Below the pieces are notes generated by a model. It made no database searches, was not told where the DNA came from, and saw only the letters and a list, made by a program, of their open reading frames with translations. From Opitutus sp. (GTDB taxonomy: Bacteria; Verrucomicrobiota; Verrucomicrobiia; Opitutales; Opitutaceae), in contig JANYAM010000280.1 of NCBI GenBank assembly GCA_025361365.1, positions 1 through 35,165 on the forward strand: 35,165 nucleotides of DNA. Reading direction: 5' to 3'. A program made the translations under genes and the position numbers. Of the stretch, positions 20,239 to 24,695 are shown piece after piece. Numbering within the stretch: position 1 is the stretch's first letter; every line of letters starts with the position of its first letter.

Positions 20239-20266
20239 TTGACTCCCCCCTTCGGTCAGGTAGCTT
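20239..20266 (+). promoter_or_regulatory. Candidate sigma-70 promoter for ileS
   Basis: TTGACT (20239-20244) is spaced 16 bp from TAGCTT (20261-20266). The -35 matches five of six positions; the -10 is weak. It lies 18-45 bp before the ATG of ileS and directly after the REP doublet. No T-box leader features are seen. Confidence 0.3.
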
Positions 20267-20283
20267 CCCGCCCCTTATTTCCG

Positions 20284-23127
20284 ATGGCGACCGAACTCAA
20301 AGACACCCTCCTGCTGCCCAAGACCGATTTACCCATGCGGGCAGGCTTGGTCCAACGCGAGCCGGGCCGGGTCGCGCATTGGGAGAAGACCGATCTCTAC
20401 AACCAGATCCAGCAGGCCCGCGCCGGCCGCCCCGCCTTCGTGCTGCATGACGGCCCGCCGTTCACCAACGGCGACGTCCACATCGGCACCGCGCTCAACA
20501 AGACGCTCAAGGACATCGTCAACCGCTACAAGTCCATGCGCGGCTTCCGCACGCCCTACGTGCCGGGCTGGGACTGCCACGGCCTGCCGATCGAGCAGAA
20601 GGTCAGCAAGGAGATCAAGGAGCAGAACCTCACGCTCACCACGGCACAGCTGCGCGCCAAGTGCGACGAGTTTTCCGAGAGCTGGATCGGCAAGCAGACC
20701 GCGCAGTTCAAGCGTATCGGCGTCCTCGCGGACTGGAAGAACGAATACAAGACCAAGGCGCCGGCCTTCGAGGCCGACATCCTCCGCACCTTCGCCGCGT
20801 TCGTCGAGCAGGGGCTCGTCTACCGCAGTAAGAAACCCGTCTACTGGTCCATCCCCTTCGAGACCGCCCTCGCCGAGGCGGAGATTGAATACAAGGACCA
20901 CACCTCGATCGCCATCTGGGTGAAGTTTCTCGTGCCGGTGGAAGAGGCGAAGAAGTTCGGCCTGCCCACCGACAAGCCGCTCTACATCGTCATCTGGACG
21001 ACCACCCCGTGGACGATCCCCGCCAATCTCGCGATCGCCCTGCATCCTACGGTGGACTACGTCGTCACTGACACCGGCGCCGACCGCCTCATCGTCGCTT
21101 CTGCCCTGCTCGGCGCCGTCGCCACTGCCGCGAAACTCGAGCCCCAGCCCTCCGTCGTGCTGACCCTCCTCGGCGCCAAGCTCGAAGGCCTTCAGGCCCG
21201 CCATCCCTTCATTGACCGCGCCTCGCCCGTCGTGCTCGCCGATTACGTCACGACCGACAGCGGCACCGGCGCCGTCCATACCGCGCCCGGCCACGGCGCG
21301 GAGGACTATCTCACCGGCCTCAACTACAAGCTCGAGATCTACTGCCCGGTCGGCGACGACGGCAAATACCTCGACGACGGCCGCGTCCCCGCCGACCTCG
21401 TCGGCCTGACCACGCTTGAGACGGTCGAGGATCTCGCCGCCAAGAAGCCCGCGCCCGCCAACCTCGGCGTGTTGAAGAAGCTCGCCGACGCCGGCGCGTT
21501 GCTCGCCAAGGCCAAGTATCCGCACAGCTACCCGCATTGCTGGCGCTCCAAGACGCCGATCATCTTCCGCGCCGTCGACCAGTGGTTCGTGTCGCTCGAC
21601 AAGGCCGGCCACCGCCAGATCGCCCTCAAGGAAATCACCAAGATCGCCGAGCACCAGGGCTGGATCCCGGCCTGGGGTGAGGCCCGCATCCGCGGCGCCG
21701 TCGAATCACGCCCCGACTGGTGCATCAGCCGCCAGCGCTCGTGGGGTGTGCCGATCATTGCCTTCTACGGTCCGGACAAGAAACCCTATCTCGATGCCGG
21801 CGTGGTCCGTGCCGTCGCTGACAAGGTCGCCACCAAGGGCACCAATTTCTGGTATGACGCCAAGCCGGCCGAGATTCTCGCCGGGGTGCAGCTTCCCGCC
21901 GGCTGGCCCGCGGCCGACACGCTCACCTGCGGTCGCGACACACTCGACGTTTGGATCGACTCCGGTTCCACCCAGGCCGCCGTGCTCAAGCGCGGCCAGG
22001 GCGGCACCCAATGGCCGGCCGATCTCTATCTCGAGGGCAGCGACCAGCACCGCGGCTGGTTCCAGTCCTCGCTTTGGTGCAGCGTCATCTCCTGGGGCGC
22101 CGCGCCCTACAAGGCCGTCCTCACCCACGGCTTCATCGTCGACAAGAACCGCCAGAAAATCTCGAAGAGTTCGACCTACCAGAAGCCGCAGACCGCCGAC
22201 GCCTACATCGCGCAGCACGGCGCCGACGTCATCCGCCTCTGGATCGCCTCCCAGGACTTCCGCGACGACATCCCGGTGGACGACGAGATCCTCAAGCACG
22301 TGGGCGAAGCCTACCGTCTTTTCCGCAACACCCTCCGCTTCCAGCTTTCCAACCTGTTCGACTTCGACGCCACGAAACACGCCGTGCCGATCGAGAAGAT
22401 GGACGTACTCGACCGCTGGGCGCTGCACCAGACTGCCGTCCTCATCGAGGAGTGCACGAAGGCCTACGACGCCTACGAGTTCCACCGCGTCTACCAGCTC
22501 TGCAACCAGTTCTGTTCGGTCACGCTGTCGGCCACTTATCACGACATCCTGAAGGACCGGCTCTACACGCTCGGCGCCGCGCACCCGCTCCGCCGCTCGT
22601 CGCAGACCGCGATCCACGCCATCTTCGACGCCCTCGTGAAGATCCTGGCGCCGTTCATCACCTTCACGACCGACGAAGCTTGGAGCTACGCCAAGACCAA
22701 CCAGGAATACTCCGCCGAGTCCATCCACCTGCAGGACTGGCCGGTCGCGCCCGCCGGCTGGCGCAGCAGTGAGGTTGAAGCTGATTTCGCCACCCTGTTC
22801 CAATTGCGCGCCAAGGTCACCGAGGCGCTCGAGCCACTCCGCCAGGCCGGCACCATCGGCAAGTCGCTGGACGCCGTCGTGACGCTGACCGGCGCCACGG
22901 ACGAGGCCGCCTTCCGCGTGCTGGAAAAGCATCAGGGATTTCTACCCGAACTCTTTATTGTCTCGGATGTCAGTCTCGTCGCCGGTCCCGGCGCGGCGCC
23001 CACTGCCCGCCACGCCAAGGAAACTGGCCACACCCGCTGCCCGCGCTGCTGGCGATGGGTGCCGAAAGTTGTTCACAGCCCGCACGGAGAAGTTTGCCCT
23101 CGGTGCGCAGAAGCCCTTAACTCCTAA
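20284..23127 (+). CDS. ileS: Isoleucyl-tRNA synthetase
   Basis: Class I synthetase of 947 residues charging tRNA-Ile, with an editing domain. The HIGH-type motif is in HDGPPFTNGDVHIGTAL (residues 55-71), and the KMSKS equivalent is KISKS in NRQKISKSSTYQKP. CP1 editing blocks include WTTTPWTIPANLAI and TAPGHGAEDY. The C-terminus carries a Cys4 zinc site (RCPRCWRW and VCPRCAEAL), as in the bacterial form sensitive to mupirocin-type inhibitors. ATG 20284 is preferred over TTG 20239 because MATELKDTLLLPKTD is the usual opening. DksA-like and lspA genes follow in the same direction. Confidence 0.98.
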   Translation: MATELKDTLLLPKTDLPMRAGLVQREPGRVAHWEKTDLYNQIQQARAGRPAFVLHDGPPFTNGDVHIGTALNKTLKDIVNRYKSMRGFRTPYVPGWDCHGLPIEQKVSKEIKEQNLTLTTAQLRAKCDEFSESWIGKQTAQFKRIGVLADWKNEYKTKAPAFEADILRTFAAFVEQGLVYRSKKPVYWSIPFETALAEAEIEYKDHTSIAIWVKFLVPVEEAKKFGLPTDKPLYIVIWTTTPWTIPANLAIALHPTVDYVVTDTGADRLIVASALLGAVATAAKLEPQPSVVLTLLGAKLEGLQARHPFIDRASPVVLADYVTTDSGTGAVHTAPGHGAEDYLTGLNYKLEIYCPVGDDGKYLDDGRVPADLVGLTTLETVEDLAAKKPAPANLGVLKKLADAGALLAKAKYPHSYPHCWRSKTPIIFRAVDQWFVSLDKAGHRQIALKEITKIAEHQGWIPAWGEARIRGAVESRPDWCISRQRSWGVPIIAFYGPDKKPYLDAGVVRAVADKVATKGTNFWYDAKPAEILAGVQLPAGWPAADTLTCGRDTLDVWIDSGSTQAAVLKRGQGGTQWPADLYLEGSDQHRGWFQSSLWCSVISWGAAPYKAVLTHGFIVDKNRQKISKSSTYQKPQTADAYIAQHGADVIRLWIASQDFRDDIPVDDEILKHVGEAYRLFRNTLRFQLSNLFDFDATKHAVPIEKMDVLDRWALHQTAVLIEECTKAYDAYEFHRVYQLCNQFCSVTLSATYHDILKDRLYTLGAAHPLRRSSQTAIHAIFDALVKILAPFITFTTDEAWSYAKTNQEYSAESIHLQDWPVAPAGWRSSEVEADFATLFQLRAKVTEALEPLRQAGTIGKSLDAVVTLTGATDEAAFRVLEKHQGFLPELFIVSDVSLVAGPGAAPTARHAKETGHTRCPRCWRWVPKVVHSPHGEVCPRCAEALNS

Positions 23128-23138
23128 CCCGACCCTCT

Positions 23139-24080
23139 ATGGCCACGAAGAAAAAGACTCCCGCGAAGAAGCCCGCCGCCAAGAAAGCCCCCGCCCACAA
23201 GCCGGCGAAGGCTCCGGCCAAGCCAGTGGCGGCCGCCAAATCCGCGGCCAAGCCCGCCGCGAAACCCGCGCCCAAGGCCGCCGCCCCCGCCGGCAAACCC
23301 GCCCCGGCCGCCAAGGGCAAGGCAGTGTCCGCCGCCGATCTCAAGCGCCTGCTCCTCGAGCGCAAGGCCGCGCCCAAGGCCATCGCCTTCAGCCTCGATG
23401 AGGTCCGCGAGATCGCGAAGAAGAACGAGAAGCAGGTCGAAAGCTCCGCCAAGAACGGCAAGAACGGCAAGAACGGCCCCGGCGCCAAGCACACCAATCT
23501 CAACGCCGACCTGGCCAAGCCCCACAAGCCGCACCACGTGAAGACCGCCTCGCTGGCGGACATCCTCGGCTTCAACCCCACCAAGGGCAAGAAGGCCCCG
23601 GCCGCCATGATCGACGAGTCCGAGGTGCCGGAGAAATATCGCCGCTACTACCGCCTGCTCCTCGAGCTGCGCCACCACGTCCTCGTCCAGCTCGGCGAAC
23701 ACACCGAGGAGACGCTGCTGAAGTCCGCCAAGGATGATTCGGGCGACCTTTCCGGCTACGGCCAGCACATGGCCGACGCGGGCACCGACACCTTTGACCG
23801 CGACTTCGCCCTGAGCCTCGTCTCCAACGAGCAGGAGGCCCTCTCCGAGATCGAGGCCGCGATCAAGCGGATCCACGCCGGCACCTACGGCATCTGCGAG
23901 ACGACCCAAAAGCCGATCTCGAAGGAGCGCCTGCTCGCCGTGCCCTTCACCCGCTACTCGACCGAGGCGAAACGCGAGGTCGAACGCCACTCCCACCGCT
24001 CCGTCGAGCGCGGCGGCCTGTTCGGCGACGGCGCCGAGGAGGAAGGCGGCAAGATCTCCGACGGCGGCGACGACGAGTGA
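23139..24080 (+). CDS. DksA/TraR-like protein with histone H1-like N-terminal tail
   Basis: A 313-residue protein in three parts. Residues 1 to about 65 are Lys/Ala/Pro-rich repeats (KKTPAKKPAAKKAP type), like histone H1 tails. Residues 65-160 are a charged linker. The rest resembles DksA: a long helical region (YRRYYRLLLELRHHVLVQLG), then a tip with TDTFDRDFALSLVSNEQ, then a finger-like GTYGICETTQKPISKERLLA. Classical DksA has four zinc cysteines; here only the Cys of GIC remains, so zinc is probably not bound. Acidic residues at the coiled-coil tip are kept, so action in the RNA polymerase secondary channel is possible. It starts 11 bp after ileS. Confidence 0.85.
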   Translation: MATKKKTPAKKPAAKKAPAHKPAKAPAKPVAAAKSAAKPAAKPAPKAAAPAGKPAPAAKGKAVSAADLKRLLLERKAAPKAIAFSLDEVREIAKKNEKQVESSAKNGKNGKNGPGAKHTNLNADLAKPHKPHHVKTASLADILGFNPTKGKKAPAAMIDESEVPEKYRRYYRLLLELRHHVLVQLGEHTEETLLKSAKDDSGDLSGYGQHMADAGTDTFDRDFALSLVSNEQEALSEIEAAIKRIHAGTYGICETTQKPISKERLLAVPFTRYSTEAKREVERHSHRSVERGGLFGDGAEEEGGKISDGGDDE

Positions 24081-24083
24081 TTC

Positions 24084-24203
24084 AATTGCGGATTTGAGAT
24101 TGCGGATTTCGGATTGAACTCAAGCCATACCAATTCCGCGCCAGAATCGGGGCTTGGTGCCCGCGCTGGCCAATCCGCAATCCGCAATCCCCAATCCGCA
24201 ATT
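24084..24203. repeat. Inverted pair of heptamer arrays (word CAATCCG)
   Basis: The right arm (24171-24203) is a run of 7-bp units: CAATCCG at 24171 and 24178, CAATCCC at 24185, CAATCCG at 24192 and CAATTCA at 24199. The left arm (24084-24116) is the reverse complement over 33 bases with three mismatches; its units ATTGCGG, ATTTGAG and ATTTCGG start every 7 bp from 24085. The loop is 54 bp. The left arm contains the only plausible lspA start codon. Confidence 0.88.
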
Positions 24204-24695
24204 CAGCGGATCTTCGCCTACCGGCGCCTGTGGTTGCTAGGCGTCATTGTCTTCGCGCTGGATCAGCTGACGAAATACTGGATCAACGCCCGCCTGCCCT
24301 TTGGCAGCTACGGCCCCGGCGCCAGCATCCAGATCTTTCCGAATTTCTTCTACCTGGTGCACGTCGGCAACACGGGCGCGGCCTGGAGCATGTTCCCGGG
24401 CGCCAGCCTGTGGCTCGCCCTCCTCGCCGCGGGCACGCTGGTGGCGGTCTTCGTCTGGCGCCGGCCGCTCGGCCTCCGCTCGCCTTCCGCCCAGGCCGCC
24501 TTCGGGCTGCTCTGCGGCGGCATCCTGGGCAACCTGGTCGACCGGATCGTGCACCATCACGTGATCGACTTCCTGGACTTCCATTTCGGCACCTACACCT
24601 ACCCGACCTTCAACGTCGCGGACTCCGGCATCTGTGTCGGCGTCTTCTGGTATGTGCTCTGGTCGCTGCGCCAGCCGGCGGCACCGGCTTCTTAA
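24114..24695 (+). CDS. lspA: Prolipoprotein signal peptidase (signal peptidase II)
   Basis: Inner-membrane aspartyl protease that cleaves signal peptides of lipoproteins. The frame from TTG 24114 is 193 residues. The conserved part begins FAYRRLWLLGVIVFALDQLTKYW (written in two parts in the family: YRRLWLLG and DQLTKYW). VGNTGAAWSMFPG, GNLVDRI, VIDFLDF (catalytic Asp) and FNVADSGICVG (second catalytic Asp) are all present, with four membrane segments. The first 33 residues are not family-like and are encoded by the heptamer repeat (SAIRNPQSAIQ). No ATG or GTG lies nearer the conserved part, so the start is either this TTG or a rare codon. Confidence 0.9.
   Translation: MNSSHTNSAPESGLGARAGQSAIRNPQSAIQRIFAYRRLWLLGVIVFALDQLTKYWINARLPFGSYGPGASIQIFPNFFYLVHVGNTGAAWSMFPGASLWLALLAAGTLVAVFVWRRPLGLRSPSAQAAFGLLCGGILGNLVDRIVHHHVIDFLDFHFGTYTYPTFNVADSGICVGVFWYVLWSLRQPAAPAS

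Follow-up and report, generated by a model that had tools for sequence, protein, structure and literature searches.

The hairpin at the start of lspA in the window (the whole stretch of 35,165 nt analysed here) looks to belong, by its position, to the stop codon of the gene before it rather than to lspA. The reading that we prefer, with a probability of about two in three, is a composite one: a dispersed, stop-adjacent element lies beside an inherited TTG start codon. The hairpin is then one copy of an inverted-pair heptamer element that would serve the 3′ end of a dksA-like gene, and lspA follows so closely that the second arm would land in its leader. Initiation of lspA would take place at the inherited TTG at 24,114, with residues 20–30 of a 31-residue leader being contributed by the right arm.

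The element begins 3 nt past the stop codon of the dksA-like gene with a left arm in the GATT orientation (24,084–24,116, plus strand), which has five boxes with the spacers CGA, CGC, TCA and CGC, read from the loop outwards. The loop of 54 nt (24,117–24,170, plus strand) encodes residues 2–19 (NSSHTNSAPESGLGARAG), a part of the leader that is poorly conserved among relatives, and the right arm in the AATC orientation (24,171–24,203, plus strand), with the spacers CGC, CGC, CCC and CGC, encodes in frame the eleven residues 20–30 (QSAIRNPQSAI). The two arms, 33 nt each with 54 nt between them, are 91% complementary. The predicted RNA fold of positions 24,075–24,260 reaches –78.1 kcal/mol, compared to –60.5 ± 4.2 in 200 shuffled sequences (z = –4.2; 0 of 200 were as good), and the element by itself has a folding energy of –58.7. 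A search of the same genome for AATCCGCAATCCGCAAT, with up to two mismatches allowed, returned 25 matches and the reversed control returned none, so the hairpin repeat is not a product of chance. The initial annotation, which had placed a hairpin with 33-base arms here and had read its right arm as coding, was correct on both points. A known structured RNA family was rejected as an identity for the hairpin: no Rfam model matched the window element at its gathering score, and the best of them, mir-284 (24.1 bits against a gathering score of 60; minus strand, 24,083–24,202), is most likely a chance hairpin match.

Copies of this element are dispersed in the genus. Of the 21 genus genomes, 18 contain the pattern AATCNNNAATCNNNAATC; each of these has between 1 and 95 matches, and the reversed control scores 0 or 1. 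Requiring three exact boxes gave 166 arrays at sites from six genomes; this sample holds all listed sites of G008, G011, G014 and G016, all those of the genome of the window (G000) together with contig C192 (inexact arrays only), and, from G018, lspA and 13 of 16 other sites (those on C26, C30 and C32 being left out). Five boxes at a 7-nt pitch were present in 126 of the 166 arrays when the outer boxes were allowed one mismatch. Where two arrays formed an inverted pair within 150 nt, the GATT arm came first in 37 of 37 cases, and the loops of these pairs, 5–107 nt long, are unrelated to one another. The element consists of two 32-nt arms, GATT and then AATC, around a loop that varies, with a spacer consensus, from the loop outwards, of mostly GAA-GAG-CAA-GAA, and of CGC in the genome of the window.

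Across the phylum, matches were found in 36 of 115 Verrucomicrobiota genomes (for example G153, G060, G022 and G083), with the reversed control exceeding the pattern in G094, G109, G131 and G150. The 24-nt pattern matches as many as 221 times in one genome and is sometimes missing from congeners (g43). Across the distant regions examined, which were taken from the genomes with matches, boxes are kept and spacers are nearly random; all six inverted pairs have the one polarity, a count that is not unbiased because seven of the regions were picked for showing an inverted pair. At one site of the window genome (L040, contig C140), a GGTAGGGCGG-type palindrome stands directly before the array, with a tag that resembles the GTAG REPs of O. 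terrae; the gene that starts there is, going by its sequence, presumably urocanate-hydratase-like.

The placement of the arrays is tied to stop codons in an orientation-dependent manner. For GATT-oriented arrays, 48 of 54 distances to the end of a called gene fell between –3 and +8 nt, with peaks at +3 (17 distances) and –2 (13 distances), compared to 0 of 76 for AATC-oriented arrays; distances were taken within –30 to +300 nt, gene ends followed a crude GC3 rule, and an array that lies close to two genes may enter more than once. A test that is free of gene calls gave the same order: open frames of 80 codons or more ended at 48 of 151 GATT readings, at 8 of 151 AATC readings and at 26 of 755 random positions, and, in 20 regions of seven distant phylum genomes, at 9 of 32, 1 of 32 and 3 of 160, respectively. 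At least one arm was stop-adjacent in 32 of the 37 pairs. The window element, at +3 from the stop, is therefore read as a 3′-end element of the dksA-like gene. A literature search, in which the heptamer itself was not a search term and subscription journals were mostly uncovered, found no description of an AATCNNN element or of this stop-codon rule.

In the –2 class of the six-genome sample, the outer GATT/AATT box itself supplies the stop codon (TGATT or TAATT), as reported for GTAG REPs. Arrays that are neither stop-adjacent nor partnered number 79 of 166, and many of them lie inside ORFs. When the 75 arrays called as lying within ORFs are considered alone, the coding strand carries AATC in 67, and a called start is no more than 150 nt away in 31; an AATC arm within a leader is thus nothing out of the ordinary for the genus.

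The genes around the hairpin lie close together. The apparent operon opens with a class I tRNA synthetase ORF (20,239–23,127, plus strand; Pfam PF00133, E = 1e-112), which we take to be ileS from this match and from the known ileS–lspA neighbourhood. After a gap of 11 nt follows the dksA-like gene with its DksA/TraR zinc finger (23,139–24,080, plus strand; PF01258, E = 4.6e-8), whose TGA stop at 24,078–24,080 is 33 nt from the TTG of lspA, the gene for signal peptidase II (24,114–24,695, plus strand; 193 residues from TTG; PF01252, E = 2.5e-36, residues 44–185). A Pfam search placed a yicC-like gene after lspA on the opposite strand. The dksA-like protein has a long N-terminal tail rich in Lys, Ala and Pro, similar to histone H1. 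Here dksA and lspA share one frame, with the TGA and eleven codons between them, so that read-through of the TGA would yield a DksA-LspA fusion; in several relatives the gap does not divide evenly by three. Between 23,000 and 25,000 there was no promoter-like site, and there were three terminator-like sites (2.0 expected), none inside the element; a terminator or promoter role for the hairpin was rejected on these grounds.

To what extent does the repeat make the N-terminus of LspA? As initially annotated, the TTG at 24,114–24,116 (plus strand), which forms the last bases of the left arm, is the only in-frame ATG, GTG or TTG from the end of dksA to the LspA core, and so the sole ordinary start of lspA. 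The part of LspA that can be aligned opens with RIFAYRR at residue 32, which gives a leader of 31 residues instead of the 33 first proposed; the Peptidase_A8 match in Pfam begins at residue 44. We compared 106 lspA loci from the genus, the family, the order and named genome records, of which 95 with a readable dksA part were placed in a tree; the counts of lspA leaders exclude G006 and G013, in which lspA had no match, and G017, whose lspA is cut off where its contig ends. The start candidate was defined as the first in-frame start 24–42 codons upstream of the core, and a locus was called repeat-free if no two exact boxes were kept at a 7-nt pitch.

A TTG stands 28–33 codons before the core in nine repeat-free relatives, all of other genera (G027, L115, L120, L124, L126, L127, L131, L136 and L155), and at exactly 33 codons in G027, L115, L124, L126 and L136. 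In all nine the next base is A, as can be seen by comparing TTGAAACCTGAGTCC (L124) and TTGAACTCCGGTCC (G027) with TTGAACTCAAGC of the window. The distance from the dksA stop to the core is 126 nt in the window and 103–137 nt in eight of the nine; the gap of 99 nt in L115 is doubtful, a frame error being probable, and was kept out of this range. The repeat of this genome is therefore not the source of the start codon, and the earlier claim, by which the hairpin provides the start codon together with 33 leading residues, is not supported, the right arm giving residues 20–30 only. Repeat-free relatives with the same N-terminal sequence had been named as what would refute that claim; these relatives agree with the window in start codon and leader length and differ in their N-terminal letters, so that the refutation holds for the former two and not for the sequence. 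From these alignments, the left arm of this genome appears merely to overlap a start that relatives have without any repeat, and the contribution of the repeat to LspA would be only some eleven residues and, probably, a predicted fold over the start.

A deeper origin for the TTG has to be weighed against this, namely that the GATTG of an ancestral hairpin in the family became the TTG start and that the repeat-free relatives lost their arms later; the initial claim would then hold, though for a distant ancestor. Arms occur at the same place before lspA outside the genus (L112, L142, L154, L117 and L180), which leaves room for an older hairpin as the source; in addition, the 103–137 nt between stop and core in repeat-free TTG relatives resemble the 107–159 nt of the seven two-armed loci, against 65–90 nt in many repeat-free relatives that use another start, and the stretch before the TTG of L115 resembles a decayed left arm. 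However, GATTGA surrounds the TTG in only four of the nine repeat-free TTG relatives, with CTTGA or GTTTGA in the other five (L120, L127, L131, L136 and L155), and none of the nine keeps two exact boxes at the 7-nt pitch. We consider this origin unlikely.

Another possibility is that translation begins at a rare or later start, such as an ATT or ATC that the right arm holds in frame, and that the whole hairpin is an untranslated leader. An ATG lies 2–3 codons ahead of the core in G015 and G010 and in some repeat-free relatives (L124, L126, L127 and L136), and a survey of REPs warns that those at annotated N-termini are often extragenic (Di Nocera, 2013; PMC3733652). In six pairs of loci there was no clear excess of third-codon-position substitutions in the lspA leader; translation from the TTG is thus without codon-level support, and third-position conservation was dropped as a test of the start. 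Against a later start, the genome of the window carries ATT, not ATG, at the position in question, the TTG is retained in many relatives, and five of them hold it at exactly 33 codons from the core. A rare or later start appears quite improbable on this evidence, and for annotation we would keep the TTG start of lspA and not take the repeat for a wholly new N-terminus. In G014 and G010 the candidate, a TTG or GTG, sits directly before the right arm instead.

At the lspA locus the arms differ between genomes. The leader of lspA could be read in 18 genus genomes, of which 11 have at least one arm of three or more exact boxes and six have both arms; in seven, the nearest relative G012 included, no arm there reached three exact boxes, and a degenerate left arm in G003 is scored as none by the box rule. 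Boxes of the right arm are 68% identical in pairwise comparison and the spacers 48% (12 loci), with 80% and 51%, respectively, for the left arm (8 arms); the higher identity of boxes is partly built in, since the 12 loci were chosen for carrying arms. The units at lspA differ by genome, with CGC in the window, GAA types in G008, G014 and G018, and GTA/ATA in G011. Upstream of lspA in L169 there seems to be a CTCTNNN array, and the uvrA linker of G018 (L373) seems to hold a CTCAACC-like array; such arrays of a fixed tetramer with a variable triplet suggest more than one class of heptamer. That arms overwrite sequence rather than insert was considered, stop-to-core gaps at lspA and linker lengths in uvrA being similar with and without arms, and was set aside because decay of older arms explains this equally.

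We further analyzed how the arms would act on the lspA start. As had been suggested from the outset, they could fold over the initiation site: the predicted fold covers the start, and the predicted cost of opening the start region in the genome of the window is 25.3 kcal/mol. Opening costs were computed for the loci with a scorable start candidate (55 of 106). The mean was 19.8 in six loci with both arms, compared to 12.7 in twelve TTG loci scored as arm-free (p = 0.004), a set that includes G003 and also L164, whose start is probably non-homologous; over all 41 arm-free loci it was 13.9 (p = 0.02 against loci with both arms). These p-values treat related genomes as independent, and arm-free ATG or GTG loci reach similar costs of up to 26.6.

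In the mechanism that we propose, ileS, dksA and lspA would be carried on one mRNA, in which the arms would pair; the paired arms would bound the dksA message and bury the lspA start, and ribosomes ending at 24,080 would open the outer stem and so aid initiation at 24,114; lspA would then be translated mainly when dksA has just been read to its end. The predicted burial fits translational coupling of this kind and does not prove it. Taken by itself, the coupling step is weaker than the composite reading, and we hold it tentatively, thinking it rather less probable than its absence.

Compensatory change between the arms was rejected as evidence for a selected hairpin. In the 31 elements whose arms each have four boxes or more, 37 of 117 spacer triplets agree between the two arms of one element, compared to 37.3 expected from within-genome reshuffling, and 237 of 351 spacer bases agree, compared to 231 expected (a value reached in 1901 of 10,000 shuffles); the arms share only a consensus, with no element-specific covariation. 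In six pairs from distant families, 19 of 69 spacer bases agree, which is about chance, and the boxes still pair. The mean energy of the arm duplex is –20 kcal/mol in these six distant pairs and –27.5 in the 37 genus pairs, with –43.4 in the window. That the boxes are kept and the pairing of spacers is not points to recognition of the boxes, or to their mere inheritance from one ancestral arm, and away from selection on one particular hairpin.

Such a pattern has to be set beside a neutral explanation, in which the element is a selfish repeat, perhaps spread by RAYT transposases, that survives after stop codons and in flexible linkers and has no role at lspA. We place this somewhat short of an even chance. 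A RAYT-type transposase domain (PF01797) occurs in 16 of 21 genus genomes, and at least three array matches were present in 15 of the 16 RAYT-bearing genomes compared to one of the five RAYT-free ones (Fisher p = 0.004). The arrays inside ORFs mostly have AATC on the coding strand, which is, judging from the translations, the hydrophilic reading, and the uvrA linker holds in-frame AATC arrays of differing units in G000, G008, G009 and G014, four of the 17 readable loci among 30 fetched. This linker is 68–70 residues long with arrays and 63–87 without, and REPs in the uvrA of O. terrae are a published parallel (PMC3733652). Among the uvrA loci (L034, which is C192 of G000, and L347–L376), the linkers of G012 and G018 have what appear to be other repeats, as if the site were a repeat hotspot.

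However, clade and genome size confound this association: the number of arrays correlates about as well with genome size (rho 0.50) as with the number of RAYTs (0.48). No array of at least three boxes was found in 20 regions of 2.1–3.6 kb around RAYT genes, a set that represents every RAYT-bearing genome except G001 (15 of 16) and part of the 85 matches. For RAYT as a possible mover, what was observed is a co-occurrence. In addition, a neutral survivor is not expected at exactly +3 or –2 from a stop.

Beyond the composite reading for this locus, the elements may form a class in Verrucomicrobiota, with GATT boxes at a 7-nt pitch right behind the stop codon and AATC boxes farther along, the boxes being recognised in DNA or RNA and the triplets left free; such a class would mark or shape the 3′ ends of genes and, in tight operons like dksA-lspA, couple the following gene to the preceding one; we regard a class of this breadth as rather unlikely. 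Were it to exist, the preference of the Xanthomonas and Nostoc heptamers for four units need not concern G-quadruplexes.

Tandem 7-nt units that are dispersed through genomes are familiar from the STRR heptamers of cyanobacteria. The TAACTGA heptamers of Beggiatoaceae are direct repeats found just upstream of start codons, with a proposed role in translation and one inverted repeat among 170 sets (MacGregor, 2015; PMC4679880). The element described here resembles them in being a heptamer array that is placed precisely relative to a codon, and differs in its unit and in its arrangement, theirs being direct repeats before starts and ours inverted pairs. REPs occur downstream of genes as inverted dimers whose spacers vary, and some supply stop codons; they also lie inside ORFs, many at N-termini, and in both uvrA genes of Opitutus terrae (Di Nocera, 2013; PMC3733652). 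Two inverted units with a spacer are common to REP/REPIN sequences and to our 37 pairs, with their gaps of 5–107 nt. The REP unit, however, is a single palindrome with a GTAG or CGTC tag, whereas the present arms are non-palindromic heptamer arrays; neither GTAG nor CGTC was found in the arms of the window and neither arm is self-complementary, and, unlike what holds for REPs, the RAYT regions examined here were free of arrays.

A further close parallel is found in the GGGNATC heptamers of Xanthomonas and Nostoc, which are dispersed arrays favouring four units, a number that coincides with the need of a G-quadruplex, and whose function is given as unknown; many of the Xanthomonas arrays form inverted pairs, mostly intergenic and near ORF ends (Rehm, 2015; PMC4692102). 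Both systems consist of tandem 7-nt units with about four favoured, the five boxes seen here in 126 of 166 arrays amounting to four spacers. Judged by the wording of that text, the coding strand carries GGGAATC behind the stop and pairs converge, whereas here GATT follows the stop and pairs run GATT then AATC, apparently the opposite sense. Unlike the GGGNATC units, with a GGG tract in each, the units described here have a fixed AATC and a variable triplet: the window spacers are CGA, CGC, TCA and CCC, those of the genus are mainly GAA, GAG, CAA and AAA with GGG only occasional, and yet, with most units lacking a G-tract, a similar array length is favoured. The fixed polarity, the preferred arm length and the fixed stop-codon placement offer a handle on the role of dispersed heptamer repeats, a question left open by Rehm (2015), and the element provides a largely non-G-rich comparison for the quadruplex idea.
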